From: a virus
IMG/VR virus record: IMGVR_UViG_3300029954_001014
Span: 1 to 32,887 of that record
DNA length: 32,887 nt
Strand: one strand, 5' to 3'
Shown here: positions 1 through 28,991 of the stretch, in pieces
Position numbering within the stretch: the first letter of the stretch is position 1
Layout: each line of letters opens with the position of its first letter
Notes under the pieces: generated by a model
Told to the model about the DNA's origin: nothing
What the model saw: only the letters and a program-made list of their open reading frames with translations
Database searches by the model: none
Program-made: the position numbers and the translations under genes

Positions 1-1119
1 TTGCTTAGACTGCACTTTCTCAACGTCGATCATGGCGACTGTATCGTGCTTGAGCACGAGAGTGAAGGCGTAAGGTCGTTCGCTATAGTCGATAGCAATT
101 CAAACGCCAAGGATGAGCCTCGAGCTCTTCTCAAGCTGCGTGCGATCGGCGCAACCCACCTAAATTTCGCAGCTGTCACTCATCCTCACGCAGATCATTT
201 CCTCGGTATGTCAGAGGTCCTGAAAGAATACGCTGGCAAGACAGAAATTTTTTACACTTTCCCTATTGACCGTGCCGAACTAAAAAAAATGATCGGCGCA
301 GTGGTGCAATCTGTAACGGGTATTGACGACCAAATCTATAGTCGGAGTGCTCGGCAGTTTGCCGAAGTCATGATGGCAGGCAAGGAGATAGCAGAGTCTG
401 AGGAGGGAGATTGGATAACCCCACTCGGCGAATCGACAACTCTTATGCCGAGCGGATTTAAGGGTGTGAAATTCACGGCGATCCTGCCACCTGGCCGGGT
501 AAAAGGGAAATTCTTCGAGGATATCCAAAATAATCAATTTGATTTGCGTGAACGAAATTCTAATAACGTCAGCATGGCGTTGTTAATCGAATATGCGGGA
601 CATGAAATTATTTTGGGCGGTGACGGAACCAAAGAAAATTGGTCATTCCTCCAACGCGCACGGAGCCGTGCAGGTCTCGAGTTCGCTCCTACCGTCGTCA
701 AGCTCCCCCATCATGGGTCGGAAGAAGATAGCGGGAAAGCAGTACTCGATCTTCTCTTCCAGAATCGACCTCAAAAGGTCACTCCTATCGCCTGTATATC
801 GGCAAACGGGCGAACTCACCCTTCCAATGAAGTGCTGGATGAGCTAATTGCCAAGGGCATCCATCCGTATTGCACCAATTTAGCCGAGCGATGTGGCGCG
901 AAAGCTAGAGAAATGGTAACCAGCGCCGATTGCGAACCTGAGCTCGCGCGCTTTTTGAATTCAGTCGCATCAATAGATAGCGTCGGCCGCAAACAGCCTT
1001 GTCAAGGAGACATTTCAATCACGTTTGCTGCCGACGGCTCCATAGATGTCGCCACCCAATATAACCATCCGTGCGCCTACCGCGGGGAATACGAATTCCT
1101 CGCAAATCTTGTTCAATAA
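1..1119 (+). CDS. ComEC/Rec2-like metallo-beta-lactamase-fold hydrolase
   Basis: The 372-aa protein has the metal-binding THPHADH motif (residues 60-66, the HxHxDH signature), a GGD near residue 208 and LPHHGS at 235-240. This arrangement is typical of stand-alone relatives of the ComEC/Rec2 MBL domain. The opening LRLHFLNVDHGDC is the usual N-terminus of the family, so the TTG at position 1 is plausible as the true start, although the window edge hides any upstream alternative or RBS. No membrane segment or signal peptide is seen. It is probably a cytoplasmic metal-dependent hydrolase of unknown substrate. Such proteins often sit in mobile or conflict-related loci, but its partner, if any, would lie to the left. 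It may be host DNA flanking the prophage or the leftmost phage cargo. Confidence 0.8.
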   Translation: MLRLHFLNVDHGDCIVLEHESEGVRSFAIVDSNSNAKDEPRALLKLRAIGATHLNFAAVTHPHADHFLGMSEVLKEYAGKTEIFYTFPIDRAELKKMIGAVVQSVTGIDDQIYSRSARQFAEVMMAGKEIAESEEGDWITPLGESTTLMPSGFKGVKFTAILPPGRVKGKFFEDIQNNQFDLRERNSNNVSMALLIEYAGHEIILGGDGTKENWSFLQRARSRAGLEFAPTVVKLPHHGSEEDSGKAVLDLLFQNRPQKVTPIACISANGRTHPSNEVLDELIAKGIHPYCTNLAERCGAKAREMVTSADCEPELARFLNSVASIDSVGRKQPCQGDISITFAADGSIDVATQYNHPCAYRGEYEFLANLVQ

Positions 1120-11297: not shown

Positions 11298-11478
11298 TAA
11301 ATATTGACTACACTTGCTATTGCCTGAAAAATCAAGAAAGCTCGCTGTGGATGACGTGTGAATTCGAATATTTCTGATAAAGTTTAGAGGTTTAAATGAC
11401 CGTAATCGTCCAACAGTGGACATGCAATTCGTTAAGAAGTCCTGTCTTCACAAGTATTGCTCCTTATCCTGAGGATCT

Positions 11479-11880
11479 TTGAAAGTACGTATCAGAATGG
11501 AAAATGCAAAAGAAAGAATTATTAAAATCCTCTTGAGAGTAATTCGATTAGCAAACCTTCCTATCTGGCACCATACCAAGGCGATGCTTACAGTGATACT
11601 GATGCTCTGGGGGAGATTGGTTTTTCTGCGCTTCAATGAGGCACAGCGATGGGAGGTTCGAGGCAGTGAAGTGATTCAGATCTCCGTTCTGGGTAGCGCC
11701 TTCATCCTCGCTGTGTGGCTTCTCAGTGGTTTTGCCAATTATTGCCAGTACTCACGATTTCCCGCTTATTTGAAATTGGTTTCTGCCAGCAGATTTATCG
11801 GACGAATTCTGTGGTACGGCGTTATTAGCTCGGTGATTGTGCTCGTTATACTTGGTGTCTTATTTGGTGTTGGTACTTAA
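11479..11880 (+). CDS. Membrane protein of unknown function (cargo)
   Basis: This protein of up to 133 aa has three likely membrane segments (about residues 35-50 AMLTVILMLWGRLVFL, 67-87 VIQISVLGSAFILAVWLLSGF, and the C-terminal 108-131 IGRILWYGVISSVIVLVILGVLFG) and a basic N-terminus. I do not recognise a family. The TTG at 11479 has a GAGGA upstream but only a short gap; ATG 11497 (MENAKER, 127 aa) is the alternative. The base composition is visibly AT-richer than the flanking S and V operons, and it is followed by its own terminator, suggesting an independently acquired moron. Confidence 0.6.
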   Translation: MKVRIRMENAKERIIKILLRVIRLANLPIWHHTKAMLTVILMLWGRLVFLRFNEAQRWEVRGSEVIQISVLGSAFILAVWLLSGFANYCQYSRFPAYLKLVSASRFIGRILWYGVISSVIVLVILGVLFGVGT

Positions 11881-11922
11881 GGCCGCAACCGACCAAAAGC
11901 AGACATCCATCAAAAGCAAAAG

Positions 11923-11945
11923 GTCCGCATTTGCGGGCTTTTTTT
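11923..11945 (+). terminator. Intrinsic terminator
   Basis: GTCCGC pairs with GCGGGC (one G-T pair) around an ATTT loop, followed by seven T. It ends the 133-aa membrane-protein unit and would also stop read-through from gene S. Confidence 0.8.
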
Positions 11946-12054
11946 GATACAGTTATCGATGTCCGCAATTGGCTAAGAGTGGAAAGCCATAGACGAACAT
12001 AAGTCCCCGTCTCTCAATTCATAATGTTTATAACTAATCAGAAAAGGAAATATT

Positions 12055-12294
12055 GTGGGCCCGACACTCATCAGTTTTTTACCGATGTTTATCATCCAGT
12101 TGATTTATGCAGTCTTTGTTGCGCAAATAGCGGCACGAACAAATAAGAACATCCCTGTTTATGTCGTAGTCACTCTGATTCCCATTGTTGGTATGTTCTT
12201 CTTGATCTATGTTTTCTGGTCGACGATCTTGTCGCTCCTTGACTCAGTAAATCAGTTAAAGCAGTCGCTGACCAGCAAGATTGAAGGAACATGA
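12055..12294 (+). CDS. Small two-TM membrane protein (cargo)
   Basis: The 79-aa protein starts with GTG behind a good AAAAGGAAA RBS. Two membrane helices (about residues 6-25 and 33-58, VYVVVTLIPIVGMFFLIYVFW) are followed by a short amphipathic tail (LLDSVNQLKQSLTSKIEG). I recognise no family. It has its own terminator immediately downstream, so it forms a second insulated cassette. Membrane localisation and insulation fit a lysogenic-conversion or superinfection-exclusion gene, but this is only inferred. Confidence 0.65.
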   Translation: MGPTLISFLPMFIIQLIYAVFVAQIAARTNKNIPVYVVVTLIPIVGMFFLIYVFWSTILSLLDSVNQLKQSLTSKIEGT

Positions 12295-12319
12295 GTGAAA
12301 CGGACATCCGAAGAAGCGT

Positions 12320-12344
12320 AAAGCCCGCTAAATGCGGGCTTTTT
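12320..12344 (+). terminator. Intrinsic terminator
   Basis: A perfect 9-bp stem AAAGCCCGC/GCGGGCTTT with loop TAAAT ends in a T-run. It lies 25 bases after the stop of the 79-aa protein. Confidence 0.85.
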
Positions 12345-12452
12345 GCTGTTTCGAGAAAATGCTCGGATACACTTCGATAGCAAAGTCCAAGCAGGGAACA
12401 CTATGTATTAAGGGAACGATCAATCCCTTCATAATCATATAAGGAAATTGTG

Positions 12453-12956
12453 ATGAAGTATTTTGTTTGCTTGTTTTGGGCGTTTATTATTTCACTGGAG
12501 TTATTTATGCTCAATGGAGCCATTGGTGATTATTTCTCGTATTCACACCCACCGATGAATACCTCATTGGAGGATGAAACATTCTTGATTCTTAAGGCCT
12601 CAATGAAGGTGCCAAATTTTAAGATTTTGAGTGCGAATGGTTCAGAAAGTTATTTATCGTTTCCTTATAGTGTGATGGGCCCACCAAAAAGTGGCGTGAA
12701 CGCAGAGTTTTTAAAGAGAAGTGATATGGATTCCCTCCAGGGGTGTAAGGCTCACGCCAAGGTTGCCAAACTTTCTTGGTTGTTTGTGAACCGTAAGCAA
12801 ATATGGAGTATTGCATGTGAAAACGGTGGAATTGAGTTTTCATTAAGCGAGATTGAGAGTCATTACACTCAAGGAGCGATCACAAAATTGATCATTGGGT
12901 TAGTCCTGGCGGCGATAGTGCCGTGGCTTATCCTAAAAAAGCTAAGGTGGATTTAA
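12453..12956 (+). CDS. Membrane-anchored protein of unknown function (cargo)
   Basis: The 167-aa protein has an N-terminal hydrophobic segment (about residues 3-25), a roughly 115-residue soluble domain containing two Cys (QGCKAHAK, SIACENGG), and a C-terminal membrane helix (IIGLVLAAIVPWLILKKL). ATG 12453 follows AAGGA with a 7-base gap; the overlapping GTG at 12450 is less well placed. I recognise no family. The bipartite anchoring suggests the middle domain faces the periplasm. It is the third gene of the AT-rich S-V block. Confidence 0.65.
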   Translation: MKYFVCLFWAFIISLELFMLNGAIGDYFSYSHPPMNTSLEDETFLILKASMKVPNFKILSANGSESYLSFPYSVMGPPKSGVNAEFLKRSDMDSLQGCKAHAKVAKLSWLFVNRKQIWSIACENGGIEFSLSEIESHYTQGAITKLIIGLVLAAIVPWLILKKLRWI

Positions 12957-13071
12957 ATCTAAAGGTGGTTAGGAAATATTTCTGAATTTAAATCAGAAGG
13001 AATTTCAAAGGTAGTGCCCCTTGAGAATTTTTAATCATCGCTAAAAGAATAATATTTTTGTTAGGGCTAGC

Positions 13072-13476
13072 ATGCGTCTCCTGAATATCCTCATAGCTTC
13101 TTTACTTTTACATCAGCTCGTTGCCTTTGCAGAGTCGGCAAGTTGTTTGAAGTATGAGCCAGAGGTTGTTACGATATCTGGGAAACTGGTTAGAGAGACA
13201 TTTCCTGGTCGTCCTAACTACGAAAGCATTGCAGATGGAGATGAGCCAGAAACTGGCTTTTATTTATTGCCAGAGACGCCAATATGTACAGTCGCTGAAA
13301 ATGCAATAAATCAAACTGCATTTAATGATGTTAAAAAAATTCAGCTCGTTCTCAATGAAAAACAGTACGACGAACTCAGACCTAAACTTGGTACAACGAT
13401 TCGACTAAGAGGGCAATTATTTTCTGCATTCACTAGGCATCATCATGCAAACGTATTACTTCAGATTCTTAACTGA
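13072..13476 (+). CDS. Exported DUF4431-like protein (cargo)
   Basis: The 134-aa protein has a signal peptide (residues 1-20, cleavage near AFA-ES). The mature part reads CLKYEPEVVTISGKLVRETFPGRPNYESIADGDEPETGFYLLPETPIC in pieces that match my memory of the DUF4431 family, a small beta-rich periplasmic domain of unknown function. The end (KLGTTIRLRGQLFSAFTRHHHANVLL) resembles an OB-like strand pattern. The next gene starts 18 bases later, so the two exported proteins may be made together. The RBS is weak. Confidence 0.7.
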   Translation: MRLLNILIASLLLHQLVAFAESASCLKYEPEVVTISGKLVRETFPGRPNYESIADGDEPETGFYLLPETPICTVAENAINQTAFNDVKKIQLVLNEKQYDELRPKLGTTIRLRGQLFSAFTRHHHANVLLQILN

Positions 13477-13494
13477 GTTGGAGCAGAAAATAAA

Positions 13495-14592
13495 ATGAAT
13501 TTGGTTACTAAGTATTTTCCTGCCATGGTATTGGTGTTTATCGGTTTATCAAACGCCTTTGGTGCATCATCCACAGACACCTCAGATCAACCCAGTTTTT
13601 CCTGTTTATCTCCGACCAAACTAGAGGCAACTATTTGTGCTGATCCGACGTTGACTGCCCGTGACCGAACTATGGCGGCCCTCTATGCGGTAGCCCACAA
13701 CGGCATTTTTGGTTCCCGCACATCACAAGAAGAGACGCGGCAAAAAAAATGGCTCAAGGATAGGGATGTACGTTGCCCAAAGGAGGAAACATATACTTGT
13801 CTCGTGGATGCTTACGATGATCGCTTATATGAACTGGCAGTCGCAGCACTTTTCCAATCCCCTACTCTTGCTCTCGCTGAAATTCGTCGCCAAAAGCCGA
13901 AATCTGCACCGATTTACGAGGCCATTTATAACTATGTAACGCGTGATCAAGCATCCGACAGAGCCAAGATTGTAGAACCATTGATTGCGCCGTTATTTCA
14001 AAACGTCGACGAAGATCTACGGGATCGTATTTTATCTGGTGAAGACATTCTAGACGCGCATGCGGCGGTAGCATCCGACTTTGCATTCGCGTTAATTTTG
14101 GATGTCGCATCGATTAATGAAACAAGGCTGATCTTGCCGTGTGTAGCTTTAATTCGTCGCCCCAATCTCGTTGATGCTCTGGGTCCACATTACAGCGGCG
14201 CCCTTGATGGTTCACTTATCCGATCGAATTGCATGGAGGTACTCCCATCTATTCCGGGAGTGGATCGTCTTGTCAATACCGCAGTGTCTGTGCAGCCATT
14301 TTGTCCAGGAACTATAAGATTTTCACTTGCGCGTGCCTATGATCAGACCTTAGTTGAAATCCGTCTTCACCTTAGGTATCCGTGGAAAACAGTTGGTCTT
14401 CCGGAAAGCGAGCAAGCTAATGAAAATAATTTCCGTTCGTCACATCAAGCGCCAATTGAAGCGGCAATTGCCGAATTAGCCAACTATTATGCAGAATATT
14501 TTGGCATTTCAAAACAGCAGGCTAGGATCGATGCGAATTCTGCAATCAATGCCGTTATTGGAGGCGCATTTAATCTGTGTGAGGAGGGGTAA
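13495..14592 (+). CDS. Exported protein with LprI-like (DUF1311) N-terminal domain
   Basis: The 365-aa protein has a signal peptide (cleavage near AFG-AS, residue 23). Residues 35-115 hold the DUF1311/LprI pattern: FSCLSPTKLEATICADPTLTARDRTMAALY, then KKWLKDRDVRCP...TCLVDAYDDRLYEL, with four Cys (37, 48, 94, 102) likely forming two disulfides. LprI of Mycobacterium inhibits lysozyme, and related domains are common in proteobacterial periplasmic proteins. The remaining 250 residues are helical and unrecognised. It sits directly behind the DUF4431-like gene. A lysozyme-inhibitor function would be interesting in a phage, but it is not shown by sequence. Confidence 0.65.
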   Translation: MNLVTKYFPAMVLVFIGLSNAFGASSTDTSDQPSFSCLSPTKLEATICADPTLTARDRTMAALYAVAHNGIFGSRTSQEETRQKKWLKDRDVRCPKEETYTCLVDAYDDRLYELAVAALFQSPTLALAEIRRQKPKSAPIYEAIYNYVTRDQASDRAKIVEPLIAPLFQNVDEDLRDRILSGEDILDAHAAVASDFAFALILDVASINETRLILPCVALIRRPNLVDALGPHYSGALDGSLIRSNCMEVLPSIPGVDRLVNTAVSVQPFCPGTIRFSLARAYDQTLVEIRLHLRYPWKTVGLPESEQANENNFRSSHQAPIEAAIAELANYYAEYFGISKQQARIDANSAINAVIGGAFNLCEEG

Positions 14593-14781
14593 AGCTGTCA
14601 TCGGAGGTATTTGTAGATCCCCATCAGCGTCGATGAAGAAGCGCTTATTGAGTAGATACTCATTCCCTTCTAACCATACTGTCCTTCACTGCGACATGTA
14701 TCTCGCTTGATGAAACTACTAATTTCTTCCCATCAATGAGATATGCATTGAACGTAATCAGACTAGGAATCACCCACTGCA

Positions 14782-15303
14782 ATGAATTTTTTGAATACAT
14801 TAATCCGGAATATCACAACAATCATTGTCGGCCCTGTCGCAGTCTTGATGGCCTATGGTGATTGGGAAGGACAATATCTTTATTTACCTCCCAGCGAACG
14901 ACCTTACGGCTTTCTGATGAGCGCGTTTAGCGCATCGTTTTCTCTAGCGATTCTTGGCATTTATCTGGCTTTTGATAAAGAAAGTGAAAACTATTCCATT
15001 AAGCAGCGACTAATTTTGATCACAAAAGTCGCTTTCATTTTTTTGCTCCCGTCCATCATCATGGATACATACAATCAATTCTCGTTGCATTCAAAAGTGG
15101 ACGTCGAGCACGGTACGCGCAATTACCTTGTTGTGAATTGCATTGCCATAACAAGTGGTGTACTTGGTATTCAAATAGCCATGAAAAAAAATGTCTGGGA
15201 TGCAAAAATTTTTGCTAGCGTCGCTTACATACTATTTTCCAGCGCATATTATATTTTCATGCTCTTCGTTCTCATGATTGCTCTATCTGGAAAAATTCCC
15301 TAA
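14782..15303 (+). CDS. Polytopic membrane protein of unknown function (cargo)
   Basis: The 173-aa protein has about five hydrophobic segments (residues 8-25, 44-62, 77-95, 116-134, 143-169). No family is recognised. The RBS (AGGA) is 13 bases away, so expression may be weak or the start may differ. It is the last gene of the AT-rich block before the V promoter region. The 190 bases before it show no gene. Confidence 0.6.
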   Translation: MNFLNTLIRNITTIIVGPVAVLMAYGDWEGQYLYLPPSERPYGFLMSAFSASFSLAILGIYLAFDKESENYSIKQRLILITKVAFIFLLPSIIMDTYNQFSLHSKVDVEHGTRNYLVVNCIAITSGVLGIQIAMKKNVWDAKIFASVAYILFSSAYYIFMLFVLMIALSGKIP

Positions 15304-15353
15304 CCGACAAGTTCAAAAAATATCGTCACCACGTTATCTCTTTCCCATTCACT

Positions 15354-15383
15354 TTGACGCACTAGATTAGTAAACCGTATACC
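15354..15383 (+). promoter_or_regulatory. Candidate promoter for the V-W-J-I-H operon
   Basis: TTGACG (15354-15359), an 18-base spacer and TATACC (15378-15383) lie about 50 bases before V. In P2, V has its own Ogr-dependent late promoter, and upstream terminators in the cargo block require one here too. I could not see a convincing TGT-N12-ACA Ogr site. Confidence 0.4.
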
Positions 15384-15432
15384 AACCCGCCGCAACGTGC
15401 CTTCTCACGCGCGATCCGGCACCATGGGTTGC

Positions 15433-24283: not shown

Positions 24284-24847
24284 ATGATGATGATTTTAGG
24301 CATGTTCGTTTTTAGTCTGCCGACCCTGGCGTACCAAGAGTTGCAGAGAAAAACGCAATGGAAATACGCCAGCAACGGCCGCATCGGCCGACGCGACGCC
24401 AAGCAATTCACCGGCCCAGGCGACGACACCATCACCCTGTCCGGCTGGGTCGCCCCCGAACTCACGGGCAGCCTCTACTCCTTCGACGCCCTGCGCCTGA
24501 TGGCCGATACAGGCAAGAGTTGGATACTGATCCAAGGCACCGGCCGCATCTATGGCGCATATGTCATCACCGACCTGGCGGAAACCCGCACCGTTCTCGA
24601 CGGCAGCGGCGACGCCGCCAAGGTCGAATTCAGCATCACCTTAGAACGTAGCGACGACAACGTGCCCGCCCTGATCGGCCTCGGCGACATCTCAGAACTG
24701 CGCAACATGTTGCGTCTAGATAGCCTCACCAATAGCATCGCCGACGGTGCGAGAAATGCCATCGGCAGCGTCGTCGGCGGCATCACCGACAAGGTCGGCG
24801 GCGTGGTCGATGCGATCAAAGGACCATTCGGCGGGAGCAGCACATGA
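24284..24847 (+). CDS. U: Tail terminator/tip protein (P2 gpU family)
   Basis: The 187-aa protein belongs to the gpU family: ILGMFVFSLPTLAYQELQRKTQWKYASNGRIGRRDAKQFTGPGDDTITLSGWVAPELTG...YSFDALRLMADTGKSWILIQGTGRIYGAYVITDL. AGGA at 24271-24274 is well spaced for ATG 24284, whereas the earlier ATG 24275 abuts it. The Gly/Val-rich C-terminal 40 residues extend beyond the core family. It overlaps D by 4 bases. Confidence 0.93.
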   Translation: MMMILGMFVFSLPTLAYQELQRKTQWKYASNGRIGRRDAKQFTGPGDDTITLSGWVAPELTGSLYSFDALRLMADTGKSWILIQGTGRIYGAYVITDLAETRTVLDGSGDAAKVEFSITLERSDDNVPALIGLGDISELRNMLRLDSLTNSIADGARNAIGSVVGGITDKVGGVVDAIKGPFGGSST

Positions 24848-26067
24848 GCGCACACGTACCAGCATTCAAAGTGACGATTGACGACAAGGACATCAGCACA
24901 CTGGTGACGCAGCGCCTTTGCAGCTTCCGCTTACTGCTGAGCAGAGGCGACGAAGCCGACCAACTCGACCTAAGCTTAGACGACACCGACGGCAAGCTCG
25001 CCTTGCCAGCGACCGGCGTCAAAATTTCCTTCCTGCTGGGATGGCAAGGAAAACCGCTCGTCGATGCCGGCAGCTTCACAGTCACCGAGGTCGGCCACGC
25101 GGGCGCACCGGATCAAATCACCATCCGCGCGCGCTCGGCCAACCTGATCGACACCTTCAAGCAACAGCGCGAACGCAGCTACCACGACACCACGCTCGGC
25201 ACGATCATCGACCAGATCGCGGCCGAAAATCAATTGCGCCCAGGCATCGCCAACCCGCTGCGCGGCATAACGATTGCGCACCTCGACCAGACCCACGAAA
25301 GTGACGCCGCATTGCTACGCCGACTTGGCAAAAAATACGACGCCGTCGCCACCGTCAAAAATGACACGCTGCTGTTTATCCCAATCAACCAAAGCCGCAC
25401 CGTCAGCGGCAAGCAACTGCCAACGATCAACATTAAACGCAACCTCGGTGACCAGCACAATTACCTCTCCTCCGAGGCCGACGCCTATAGCGGCGTGCGT
25501 GCATACTGGTTCGATGACAACCACGGCATGCGCCGCAGCGTCGTCGCCGGTGTCGCCGGCAACAGCAAGCGCCTGCGCACGACCTATGCAACGGAGGAAG
25601 ATGCACGCACGGCAGCGGCGTCCGAATGGCAACGCCTGCTGCGCGGCCTGGCGACCTTCGAGATGACCCTTGCTATCGGTGATCCAACTATCTCGCCACA
25701 ATCGCCGGTACAGCTTGCCGGCTACAAGCCGCAGATTGACGCGACCGAATGGCTATCGAAATCAGTGGAACACAACGGCAGTCGCAACGGCTTCACGACG
25801 CATGTGCAGTTTGAAACCAAGACAGCGCCTGCCGACACTGAGCGCGAGTTGCAGCATGACCCTGACGAAGGAATTACGGGCGTCATTGCGAAGTGGAAAG
25901 ACAAGGTCAGCAAAAAGTCGGGAAGTAAGACCGCCGGTGCGCTCGGCAATCCCAAGACCTTGAAGCACGTTTATGCCAGCAAGCAAAGTGCGAAGCGGGC
26001 GGCAAAGCTTGAATGGGAAAAGATCAAAGAGGTGCGGGAGATCATTGCCGAAAATTCAGATGCATAG
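24844..26067 (+). CDS. D: Tail hub protein (P2 gpD family)
   Basis: The 407-aa gp27-like hub protein starts HVPAFKVTIDDKDISTLVTQRLCSFRLLLSRGDEADQLDLSLDD. It contains HDTTLGTIIDQIAAENQLRPGIANPLRGITIAHLDQTHESDAALLRRLGKKYDAVATVKNDTLLFIPINQS and ends with a basic KSKR-rich tail (YASKQSAKRAAKLEWEKIKE). It forms the hub that connects tube and spike V. It is the last gene of the tail operon; no clear terminator follows before the convergent cargo gene. Confidence 0.94.
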   Translation: MSAHVPAFKVTIDDKDISTLVTQRLCSFRLLLSRGDEADQLDLSLDDTDGKLALPATGVKISFLLGWQGKPLVDAGSFTVTEVGHAGAPDQITIRARSANLIDTFKQQRERSYHDTTLGTIIDQIAAENQLRPGIANPLRGITIAHLDQTHESDAALLRRLGKKYDAVATVKNDTLLFIPINQSRTVSGKQLPTINIKRNLGDQHNYLSSEADAYSGVRAYWFDDNHGMRRSVVAGVAGNSKRLRTTYATEEDARTAAASEWQRLLRGLATFEMTLAIGDPTISPQSPVQLAGYKPQIDATEWLSKSVEHNGSRNGFTTHVQFETKTAPADTERELQHDPDEGITGVIAKWKDKVSKKSGSKTAGALGNPKTLKHVYASKQSAKRAAKLEWEKIKEVREIIAENSDA

Positions 26068-26094: not shown

Positions 26095-26538
26095 CTATCC
26101 TGTAATTGATTTTATTCCTATGCTCAACGCTTCTTTTGCCGCTGACTTGAGTACGTCCATTGCACCTGCTTTAGCGGACGCCACTAGACGGTCACCGATG
26201 GATTGTTTGTTTACCAGGCTATCAGGAACTGCATTGAGCACTGCTAACCCTTTTTGTGTCAGTACAACCCTCCGGAAATAGACTTGTGTCGGAAGTGATG
26301 CTGCAGCCGATATGTACCCCTCGCTGATCAGCCATTGCACGGTTGCAAAGACAAAATTCTCTGAAGACGTCAGTATTATGCGAGGAGAAAAATCGGACGT
26401 CTGTTCCGGTTCAGTTATATTTTTATCATCGAAAAAATCGCGAAGATGAATCTCTGTCGGGACAGGAAAACACTGGTAAAGATTAGCAAAAACTTTACCA
26501 GCAGTTCCGTTAAACATATCAATATTGGAGGCTGTCAT
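26095..26538 (-). CDS. Hypothetical winged-helix-like protein (cargo)
   Basis: This protein of up to 147 aa is not assigned to a named family. A core of FNGTAGKVFANLYQCFPVPTEIHLRDFF, FATVQWLISEGYIS and FRRVVLTQKGLAVLNAVPDSL looks like a winged-helix fold. It ends in an amphipathic C-terminal helix (DRLVASAKAGAMDVLKSAAKEALSIGIKSITG) that might touch membranes or a partner. Two starts are possible: ATG 26538, whose codon overlaps the divergent gene's ATG, or ATG 26517 (FNGTAGK). Neither has a visible RBS. It is convergent with D, and AT-rich composition marks it as cargo. Confidence 0.6.
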   Translation of the reverse strand: MTASNIDMFNGTAGKVFANLYQCFPVPTEIHLRDFFDDKNITEPEQTSDFSPRIILTSSENFVFATVQWLISEGYISAAASLPTQVYFRRVVLTQKGLAVLNAVPDSLVNKQSIGDRLVASAKAGAMDVLKSAAKEALSIGIKSITG

Positions 26539-26776
26539 GTCTATATACAATTTAACTGAACGCGAAAAGCAAATGAGGAAACAGACCGAGGATGTTCGTA
26601 GAGTGCTACAACAGCAGATCGCCGGTGCAATTGATACGAGGCGCTCAAAAGACTATTGGCAAAACATCCTTTCGGATTTTTCGATTGAAGCCATTGCAGA
26701 AGCGTTGTCATCTGAGCTAAACCATTTTAACTACTGCGAGGTGACGCACCGACATTGTTGCTGCCGTTCGCGGTAA
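26537..26776 (+). CDS. Small helical protein, divergent (cargo)
   Basis: The 79-aa protein starts behind a strong GGAGG RBS with a 5-base gap. It is charged and helical (LTEREKQMRKQTEDVRRVLQQQIAGAIDTRRSKDYWQNIL, then FSIEAIAEALSSELNHF). The last 12 residues (CEVTHRHCCCRSR) look unlike the rest and suggest a truncated or frameshifted 3' end. The gene ends 2 bases before the convergent HEPN-like gene. No function is recognised; its position hints at a link with its neighbours. Confidence 0.5.
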   Translation: MSIYNLTEREKQMRKQTEDVRRVLQQQIAGAIDTRRSKDYWQNILSDFSIEAIAEALSSELNHFNYCEVTHRHCCCRSR

Positions 26777-26778
26777 CG

Positions 26779-27591
26779 CTATTGCGGCATCATGTTTGCA
26801 AACTCTTCATCGGTAACTTCTCGCTCCTCATATTCAAAATCATCGTTTATTGTGGGTGGAAACATAGTGGTGACAACGTGTTTTGGGCCAACATAAACAC
26901 AATTCGGTAAGTAGACCAATCGAATAAAAGGGTGAGCTTCCCATTCTTTTTTTATGTAACTCTGCCCAGGAATGGGAATAAACCACGGCTGCATGCCGAA
27001 GGCGCTAAATTGTTCTCCGACGATTCCTTGAAGATTGAGAATGGCCGCCAATGCAAGGTCGCGGGTATCTTCATCTGTCGAAGGATTGAAGTGCAAAGCG
27101 GCGTTCCGCCGTCCGTGCAATTCTCTGAACAAAGAGACCACGTTAGGCAGGAGAATTCCCCAGCTTTCGAGCGTATCAATTGCTACCGACCAATTATCAA
27201 ACGAAGCTTTACGAAAGACGGTTTTATATTCAGAAGTTCCTTTGAATTGATCTCGTAGATTCAGTACCAAGTGATTGAGAATACGCTCACCCAAGGCGCA
27301 AGCTGACGTCAATGCTGGATAATAAGAACAGATTACAAACGCATTGCGGCACTGGTCGAGAAAGGCATTGTGATAAGCGACAATCGACCAAGGTTTGTTT
27401 TGCAGCGCAATAAAATTTTCGATCTTGACCGGAAGACGTTGTTCTCCGAACTGAAATGCAAAGCGGCCAATCGCTTGCTGCCGATTCTGCTCATGGTTCG
27501 CTTTAGTCGGATCATCCCAATGATCACTAGCAGGCACTAGCGTCTGCGCACGACTGTCAAAATCAAACGAGAAAATTCGGTAGCGTTTCAT
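26779..27591 (-). CDS. HEPN-like protein with RNxxxH motif (candidate RNase, cargo)
   Basis: The 270-aa protein starts MKRYRIFSFDFDSR. A helical core contains YYPALTSACALGERILNHLVLNLRDQFK and, after a DTLESWGILLP segment, LFRELHGRRNAALHFNP. R162-N163-x3-H167 fits the HEPN RX4-6H motif in which N often follows R. The C-terminal third (QPWFIPIPGQSYIKKEWEAHPFIRLVYLPNCVYVGPKH) is conserved in my memory of related unnamed proteins and may be a beta domain. HEPN proteins are commonly RNases in toxin-antitoxin, Abi and CRISPR systems. Catalysis and defence role are inferred. ATG 27591 is preferred over upstream starts because it gives the family N-terminus. Confidence 0.6.
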   Translation of the reverse strand: MKRYRIFSFDFDSRAQTLVPASDHWDDPTKANHEQNRQQAIGRFAFQFGEQRLPVKIENFIALQNKPWSIVAYHNAFLDQCRNAFVICSYYPALTSACALGERILNHLVLNLRDQFKGTSEYKTVFRKASFDNWSVAIDTLESWGILLPNVVSLFRELHGRRNAALHFNPSTDEDTRDLALAAILNLQGIVGEQFSAFGMQPWFIPIPGQSYIKKEWEAHPFIRLVYLPNCVYVGPKHVVTTMFPPTINDDFEYEEREVTDEEFANMMPQ

Positions 27592-27808
27592 CAATAATTT
27601 TCTAGACAATGCTCCGCCGCTATCATGGCTCTAATCAATTGGTTGGTTTGCGAATCGCGCGAAGACGAATCATCTCTGCATGGCCGGCCGGAGTCAGCCA
27701 CCCAAAATAGGTCGAACTCACGAATACTTGATATCGTTTATCCATTGCTGCCCGTCCATTGTTATGTATTTGAGCTACTTGAATCGTTCTCAGACCTCGT
27801 CTTGTAGG

Positions 27809-28120
27809 TCAACGCTGCCGATAGCTCTTTTTCCCAGCATCATCCAGACAATACTGTCCGCCGCGCGGCCCGGTGCAGTATTGATGACTGCGGCAACTAC
27901 AGTCGCCACCATCATCTTTTTTCTTTGGGACAAGGCGCTGTGTCGTGTCCATTGAACATATTTTCTTGGATGCACTAATAGAGCCATCATTACAAACGAA
28001 ATCAGCGCCGGCGCAATGAGATACACCACCCTTACTGCCGGAGCAGGGATAGTTTGCAGCGACTGCCATGCCTGACATGAAGAACAGGCATGTCAACAAC
28101 AAAGTCGATTTGAATTGCAT
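27809..28120 (-). CDS. Secreted Cys-rich protein (cargo)
   Basis: The 103-aa protein has a signal peptide (STLLLTCLFFMSGMAVA-A). The mature part has eight Cys: YPCSGSKGGVSHCAGADFVC...KKIC, then GDCSCRSHQYCTGPRGGQYC. The two halves look like a CNDGS-type module followed by a CSCRS/CTGPRGGQYC module. Similar small periplasmic proteins of unknown function occur in other proteobacteria (from memory). GGGGGAG lies 6 bases before ATG 28120. It has the same orientation as the repressor, so expression in the lysogen is possible. Confidence 0.65.
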   Translation of the reverse strand: MQFKSTLLLTCLFFMSGMAVAANYPCSGSKGGVSHCAGADFVCNDGSISASKKICSMDTTQRLVPKKKDDGGDCSCRSHQYCTGPRGGQYCLDDAGKKSYRQR

Positions 28121-28279
28121 TTCCACTCCCCCGCATTGATTTTTTATTTTTTTATGTATTGATGAAAAACTATGACGCGTTGGCCTCGATATGCATCATT
28201 GCCATGACTATTCGCTCATTTTCTACTGTGAGTGGCGGTGCCTCTTGCGCATATCGTTATCACAATACACACATCGTCA

Positions 28280-28708
28280 TTATTTTTTTTTGCCACCTAC
28301 GATGATGGTTTGAGGTGCGATGATATCGCCCGTCACTTGCTGACCAATATCACCATGAAACACTATGCTCTGCTGACGTTTTACCGGCTTCTCAGGTTCA
28401 GTTGCTGCAATACCTTCAGCAACCCCTAAGAGCCTCGCTTTCCCTTTCGCATCGAGAGAGCGAAATACAGCAACTAACGCGGTCTCGTCATCTGAAAGTG
28501 TGGCATCTGACACAATTCCCGTTATGACGTATTGAACGTCCACACCAATTTTGGATACAGCGAATAGGTAGCTTGCATCCGGGTGCCGTTCGTCCTGCTC
28601 ATAGAACAATTGCGCGCGCCGTTGCACGCCACCAATCGCACCGAAGTCTTCCTGATTGAAGCCTAGCCGTGTTCTTTCACTCTTAAGCCGAGCACCTATT
28701 GTTTTCAT
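28280..28708 (-). CDS. XRE-family repressor (P2 C-type role)
   Basis: The 142-aa protein has an N-terminal XRE-type HTH (residues 3-65, IGARLKSERTRLGFNQEDFGAIGGVQRRAQLFYEQDERHPDASYLFAVSKIGVDVQYVITG). The middle segment (LSDDETALVAVFRSLDAKGKARLLGVAEGIAA) is a likely dimerisation helix. The C-terminal tail (VFHGDIGQQVTGDIIAPQTIIVGGKKK) is beta-rich. It lacks a LexA-like Ser/Lys protease, so induction would not be by RecA cleavage. It faces the RHH gene across a promoter with an inverted repeat. ATG 28708 gives the family N-terminus; the frame is open for 57 codons upstream through the switch promoter. Confidence 0.85.
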   Translation of the reverse strand: MKTIGARLKSERTRLGFNQEDFGAIGGVQRRAQLFYEQDERHPDASYLFAVSKIGVDVQYVITGIVSDATLSDDETALVAVFRSLDAKGKARLLGVAEGIAATEPEKPVKRQQSIVFHGDIGQQVTGDIIAPQTIIVGGKKK

Positions 28709-28724
28709 AAAGACGCATTTAATG

Positions 28725-28753
28725 TTGACATGAGTCTTTTTGGACTCTATATT
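28725..28753 (+). promoter_or_regulatory. Early promoter with operator in the spacer
   Basis: TTGACA (28725-28730), exactly 17 bases, then TATATT (28748-28753) form a strong sigma70 promoter driving the rightward early genes. The spacer contains the inverted repeat GAGTC-TTTTTG-GACTC (28732-28747), a natural repressor operator. The half-site ATGAGTC (28730-28736) recurs at 28791-28797 over the RHH start codon. Confidence 0.8.
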
Positions 28754-28790
28754 GAAGTCATTGCTAAGTGACGTACACAAATGATATCCC

Positions 28791-28991
28791 ATGAGTCCCT
28801 CAAATACCGTTCCCGACACCGAGAATGCGCGCACCTCGCTGCCGATCACCACGCGCCTGCACCCCGACGAAGTGGCCAAGGCTGAGCGCTACGCCCGCCA
28901 GGACCAACGCACCCGTGCCGGCTTTCTGCGCGTGTTGATTTTGCGCGGTCTGGCGTCTTACGAAAAAGAGCGCGACATCAGCGTCGCCTGA
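28791..28991 (+). CDS. Small RHH-like regulator in the Cox position
   Basis: The 66-aa protein reads SLPITTRLHPDEVAKAERYARQDQRTRAGFLRVLILRGLASYEKER, a beta strand followed by two helices, the pattern of Arc/CopG ribbon-helix-helix proteins. It is first in the rightward early operon opposite the repressor, where P2 has cox. The fold appears different from P2 Cox, a winged helix, so this is a positional rather than sequence equivalence. It probably represses the C promoter and may assist excision. Its start codon overlaps a second half-operator. The RBS is weak. Confidence 0.7.
   Translation: MSPSNTVPDTENARTSLPITTRLHPDEVAKAERYARQDQRTRAGFLRVLILRGLASYEKERDISVA

Follow-up and report, generated by a model that had tools for sequence, protein, structure and literature searches.

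Genes of the D-repressor interval

The window analyzed here is the whole 32,887-nucleotide stretch of virus record IMGVR_UViG_3300029954_001014. A block of three genes at 26095–27591 is bordered by tail gene D (24844–26067) on the left and by the repressor ORF (28280–28879, minus strand) on the right. The first gene (26095–26538, minus strand) encodes a predicted winged-helix protein of 147 aa (phrog_2266), and the second (26537–26776, plus strand) encodes a helical protein of 79 aa (phrog_25421). These two genes are divergent, and the sequence CATG at 26536–26539 holds both of their start codons. The third gene (26779–27591, minus strand) encodes a 270-aa protein assigned to the HEPN superfamily. 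Its stop codon is located 2 bp from that of the 79-aa gene, the two genes being convergent. The start codon ATG at 27591 matches the start in seven homologues, while the alternative ORF start is TTG at 27609.

The original prediction had described three genes in an AT-richer block between tail gene D and the repressor, and these ORFs are real and lie at the positions given. The GC content of the block is 45.5%, compared to 58.4% in D and 55.4% over the whole window. The strong ribosome-binding site ascribed to the divergent 79-aa gene was likewise recovered, with GGAGG found a short distance 5' of its ATG, and the RRNAALH motif is present in the 270-aa protein at residues 161–167. Comparison with phage relatives yielded dN/dS values of 0.085 for the 270-aa gene and 0.081 and 0.119 for the other two, the ratios being approximate at dS of 1.4 to 2.4 (1.4 for the 270-aa gene). 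These values suggest purifying selection on each of the three genes.

Between the 270-aa gene and the repressor, there is a 105-aa ORF (27809–28126, minus strand) with a signal-peptide-like start, which matches NCBIfam PRK10040 hypothetical protein models below their cut-offs. Another AT-rich stretch, with a GC content of 38–49%, is located within the structural genes at about 11300–15400; its ORFs include some resembling membrane proteins and one of 365 aa that matches LprI weakly. The ORF at 1–1119 (plus strand), cut by the start of the window, adjoins the portal gene and shows a weak match to the metallo-beta-lactamase fold (E 0.0056); it is possibly the cargo of an A-Q-type hotspot.

Assignment of the 270-aa protein to HEPN

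Homologues of the 270-aa protein were found in phage, plasmid, and bacterial sequences. The closest one, with 81% identity, is encoded by a phage contig (L001, the same contig as L044). Identities of 56–58% were found for the homologues from Alloalcanivorax, two Halomonas, Marinobacterium, and a Cellvibrio MAG, followed by Sphingomonas (48%), a Bradyrhizobium plasmid (45%), and a Hyphomicrobiales MAG (42%). An internal stop codon interrupts the Marinobacterium copy, and a Bradyrhizobiaceae MAG contains a decayed remnant of the gene. The genome scan returned no loci with the single 270-aa sequence and eight loci with a three-row alignment; scans of the collections work on short patterns, and distant relatives are missed. 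In 369 genomes drawn from the class, no copy of the family was found beyond the seed genome, and it is therefore rare. The 270-aa protein had no match in Pfam, NCBIfam, PHROG, or PADLOC models, and none of its eight homologues was matched convincingly by Pfam in hmmscan.

The alignment of eight homologues (42–81% identity) showed that R162, N163, and H167 of the predicted RNase active site (R162-N163-A-A-L-H167, codons at 27091–27108, minus strand) are invariant, as is the acidic residue E102 (27286–27288, minus strand), which the model places in helix 2. Also invariant in the eight aligned members are R3–R5, F7, and F9–S13 at the N-terminus and Q201–W203, I213–K214, V234–P236, and H238 in the C-terminal part. 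In shuffles of the 270-aa protein, RNx3H appeared in 2.7%, R[NDH]x3H in 6.6%, and Rx4-6H in 76% of cases. The RNxxxH motif by itself is thus weak evidence for HEPN, and what counts is its invariance in homologues, which persists down to 42% identity.

HEPN domains are defined by an Rx4-6H motif that is located where helix 3 ends and in which R is mostly followed by N, D, or H; helix 2 often contains an acidic residue, and inserts between helices 2 and 3 are frequent (Anantharaman et al. 2013, PMC3710099). The AlphaFold model of the 270-aa protein built from eight sequences is weak overall (mean pLDDT 57.6), the better part being residues 70–198. It contains predicted helices at 70–86 and 90–111, an insert at 113–143, and further predicted helices at 149–166 and 170–198. 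In the model, H167 lies immediately past helix 3, and the predicted helix order of the core follows the published HEPN plan (PMC3710099). E102 lies inside helix 2, and four residues after it the protein has N106, versus K or R in the typical Ex3[KR] pattern.

A Foldseek search against PDB gave HEPN or HepT structures as 12 of the 13 best matches, with TM-scores, taken on the shorter chain, of up to 0.63, each match being individually non-significant (E 0.6 or worse). For a few of these 12, the assignment to HEPN or HepT is a reading of the entry title. A search of the viral fold library gave nothing informative. Among the three HEPN families taken into the hhalign comparison, the HepT-like family PF01934 was matched with 82% probability, with GE and RNxxxH aligned. 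The score was 36; none of 200 column shuffles exceeded 22, and the reversed family scored 13. The match to DUF4145 was marginal, scoring just above all shuffles, and there was no match to PF05168, another HEPN family, or to the unrelated 147-aa family.

The Foldseek and hhalign results are strong only when combined. The protein could instead be some other helical bundle carrying RNxxxH by chance: it matches no Pfam HEPN family, its fold E-values are individually weak, and the motif is not rare in shuffles. This is very improbable, because the motif is invariant in homologues, HEPN proteins fill the top fold matches, and the HepT profile score exceeds those of all 200 shuffles. The HEPN assignment of the original prediction is upheld by these lines of evidence, and the 270-aa protein is very probably a HEPN protein.

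Distribution of the HEPN gene and of the divergent pair

The expectation of a variable site with defence-like cargo in a P2-like phage is supported: what lies between the two conserved genes changes from relative to relative. In four relatives whose tail gene D is 87–89% identical, the D-repressor interval is filled by a different set of genes each time: the HEPN gene with an untyped gene 12 bp upstream and no 79/147 pair in L044, a 595-aa protein in L045, proteins of 331 and 354 aa in L046, and the 79/147 pair with a DUF4062 gene and no HEPN gene in L047. Since L044 has the HEPN gene without the pair and L047 has the pair without the HEPN gene, the two assort independently. A protein of 223–224 aa is present in all four relatives and missing from the window. 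The C-terminal end of the window's repressor (FHGDIGQQVTGDIIAPQTIIVGGKKK) resembles the start of this protein (VEFSGDVGQAVMGDV), the two sharing a motif.

Just upstream of the HEPN gene, at 27635–27745 (minus strand), the window retains an in-frame deletion scar of a DUF4062 gene, 36 codons long, recognized by blastn and tblastn against L047, where this gene is intact. The first 13 codons are fused in frame to about 22 last codons, and about 296 codons are gone; the two ends match L047 with E-values of 7e-7 and 3e-4. In the window, the HEPN gene is flanked by the 79/147 pair on one side and by this scar on the other, and for this reason the ancestor of the window phage probably had the L047 layout before DUF4062 was lost. 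In the Cellvibrio MAG (L011, 6001–8128), the next cassette after the HEPN gene encodes a DUF4062 protein 41% identical to that of L047. HEPN and DUF4062 genes are thus adjacent in two cases, in opposite order, which is a lead to cooperation, not proof of it.

The original prediction had linked the three genes into one system by adjacency alone, as it stated itself; this would be a defence or toxin-antitoxin system with the HEPN protein as effector, the 79-aa protein as antitoxin or sensor, and the 147-aa protein as winged-helix regulator. The genes do abut in the window, and the start codons of the pair overlap. However, the three were found together only in the window, and nine other places with the HEPN family, plus a decayed one, lack the pair. 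At the other loci with a 147-aa relative, the few flanking kilobases covered contain no HEPN gene. The HEPN cassettes consist of one ORF each, and the HEPN and 79-aa genes are convergent and do not form an operon. The three-gene reading is largely refuted and has very little chance of being correct.

The 79/147 pair is a separate, conserved module not linked to the HEPN gene. Single-sequence searches of viral contigs with the 79-aa and 147-aa proteins found no relatives; those of the 147-aa protein were found through an alignment. Of the 27 viral loci found to contain this family, 25 have the same CATG start-codon overlap with a partner of 63–64 aa, and the overlap is also present in L003, L004, and L047. 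Three of the small partners from viral loci were tested and belong to phrog_2454; they are too divergent for a good alignment with the 79-aa protein. The CATG overlap has been kept (L017–L041, L003, L004, and L047) though the small partners diverged almost beyond alignment, and the ribosome-binding region of each gene lies inside the other gene.

All 25 overlap loci, on enterobacterial P2-like phage contigs, carry the portal gene and 23 also carry gene A, which places the pair in the A-Q region, a P2 defence hotspot (Rousset et al. 2022, PMC9122126). In L047, which is more closely related to the window phage, the pair is found at the D-repressor site, both proteins being present with identities of 69% and 68% to those of the window. 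The model of the 147-aa protein (mean pLDDT 80) looks like a winged helix followed by two helices, and its fold matches are mostly MarR, PadR, and other winged-helix proteins, all with E of 0.06 or worse; this fits the winged-helix-like protein of the original prediction, the C-terminus being helical. Our best guess, made with low confidence, is a winged-helix DNA-binding regulator with a small helical partner. A relationship of the 147-aa protein to the winged auxiliary domain of DUF4062 was rejected (probability 1.8%, with 2 of 100 shuffles doing equally well). For the 147-aa relative, HHpred similarity to T7 5.5/5.7 is noted in the annotation of phage Midge. The combination of phrog_2266 with phrog_2454 or phrog_25421 is singled out as a widespread divergent pair in P2-like phages.

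In marine gammaproteobacteria, the HEPN gene is carried as an integron cassette, and in five genomes (L007–L011) it is located in a cassette holding this single ORF. The attC-like sites, called by a simple script, are clear on both sides of the ORF in L008 and L010. In L007 the upstream site is clear and the downstream one degenerate, in L009 the upstream site is clear and the downstream one looser, and in L011 both are looser. In Alloalcanivorax and both Halomonas, about 15–20 bp separate the ORF start from the preceding attC-like hairpin, and the stop codon falls within the TAACAA that opens the following attC-like site; five of the six sites in these genomes have folding z-scores of -2.7 to -6.8. 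Since attC-like sites bracket the ORF so tightly, the cassette moves the HEPN ORF alone, and neither an antitoxin gene nor an outlying RNA would fit into it. No attC-like sites were found at the five non-cassette copies (window, L001, L002, L012, and L013). An integron integrase was not found near the cassettes, and full-length integrase genes are present in two of the six host genomes, on contigs other than that of the cassette; the arrays thus resemble attC arrays that lack an integrase in their vicinity.

The neighbours of the HEPN gene are defence-rich but vary by genome, with no fixed partner. They include Dsr1 upstream in L007, PD-Lambda-4_A downstream in L012, a pPIWI-associating nuclease in L002, DUF5677 in L011 and L013, an HNH protein similar to type IV restriction enzymes in L008, and AbiV-HEPN and DUF4145 cassettes near the copies in L009 and L010. 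In L001, only 12 bp separate the HEPN gene from the untyped gene that precedes it, and a partner of the HEPN protein is therefore possible in some copies. A resemblance of this untyped gene to a PIN domain was seen by eye only, and no profile or PDB match was obtained. The Dsr1 sirtuin defence gene of L007 (1994–5878) is full length (1,294 aa), ends just before the attC-like site preceding the HEPN cassette, and is of a large size for a neighbour of a cassette array.

Proposed function and comparison with known systems

With moderate confidence, we interpret the 270-aa gene as an independently moving single-gene HEPN module, a moron at the D-repressor hotspot, which probably encodes an abortive-infection RNase effector. 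The HEPN four-helix core, at about residues 70–198, would contain the active site (R162/N163/H167 with E102), and the N- and C-terminal flanks, with their family-specific conserved residues, would most likely hold the RNase inactive by autoinhibition. A superinfecting phage or another stress would release the protein, which would then cleave RNA through R162/H167 in a metal-independent manner, the activity established for other HEPN RNases (PMC3710099). Such cleavage would halt phage growth together with the cell. The defence-rich company of the gene makes a role in defence likely, by guilt by association.

The more specific version, a one-protein antiphage HEPN RNase that senses infection by its own flanks, needs no partner, and is exchanged as a single ORF, is tentative, and we put its chance slightly below even. 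If it is true, a single ORF is exchanged among integron cassette arrays, plasmids, and the P2-like phage hotspot.

Since the mobile unit lacks an antitoxin, an autoinhibited sensor-effector is favoured over a toxin-antitoxin pair, in which the HEPN protein would be the toxin and an upstream protein or RNA the antitoxin. HepT is the best profile match, the untyped gene of L001 lies 12 bp upstream, and regulation by RNA has been described for phage-borne HEPN (AbiF) proteins (PMC12373285). Against this, the upstream neighbours differ in every genome, the ORF of the cassettes has about 15–20 bp in front of it and nothing behind it, and the family has HFN in place of the HepT tyrosine of Rx4HxY. 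We consider a two-component module unlikely. The main functional rival is an active HEPN RNase serving stress dormancy or phage-host takeover and not anti-phage defence. A role in dormancy had been suggested in 2013 for the HEPN proteins of integron cassettes (PMC3710099), but known defence genes are repeatedly found nearby, and the gene is located in an accessory-gene hotspot of a temperate phage; a role of this kind is rather improbable. An abortive-infection effector remains the preferred reading.

Of the known HEPN proteins, the closest in profile are HepT-like (HEPN-M) proteins of PF01934, the toxins of MntA-HepT, which share GE in helix 2 and RNxxxH with the 270-aa family and are also among its best fold matches. 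The HepT motif is Rx4HxY, and its tyrosine is the modified residue of HepT. Unlike HepT, all eight homologues have H167-F168-N169 in place of HxY, and the family has long conserved N- and C-terminal regions. No minimal nucleotidyltransferase (MNT) gene was found among the Pfam-scanned neighbours of the HEPN-family loci, which are a part of all neighbours. HEPN proteins with Rx4-6H occur in integron cassettes of gammaproteobacteria (the PDB 3jrt family; PMC3710099); in contrast to that cassette family of Anantharaman et al. 2013, the 270-aa family is also found in phage, plasmid, and alphaproteobacteria. The 270-aa profile matched no PDB chain below E = 1, and 3jrt was therefore unmatched. The family represents a new HEPN family outside the coverage of Pfam, NCBIfam, PHROGs, and PADLOC. 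By description it may be set beside Tha (PMC11087260), a HEPN defence system of Staphylococcus prophages, which belong to another phage lineage than that of the window.

A 2026 preprint (PMC13174449) reports that DUF4062 proteins act as antiphage NADases activated by the portal, and names them Swarozyc. A member of the DUF4062 family occupies the D-repressor site in L047; the protein is unrelated to HEPN, and the window's copy, being deleted, was cargo of the site in the past and does not belong to the HEPN module. Integron cassettes were described in 2025 reports as reservoirs of antiphage genes, and in one Vibrio cholerae integron, about 10% of the cassettes were antiphage-active (reviewed in PMC12409362). 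A single-gene HEPN unit found in cassettes, a plasmid, and phages fits this concept. The site itself resembles the published defence hotspots of P2-like phages (PMC9122126), where a small accessory block with high turnover lies between two conserved genes, as here. The published site is A-Q, in which pairs of the 79/147 type occur, while the window site is D-repressor, and the nearest published case to the latter is the cI-integrase site of K139-like phages (PMC9122126). The D-repressor interval of this phage group is a place to mine for defence genes.
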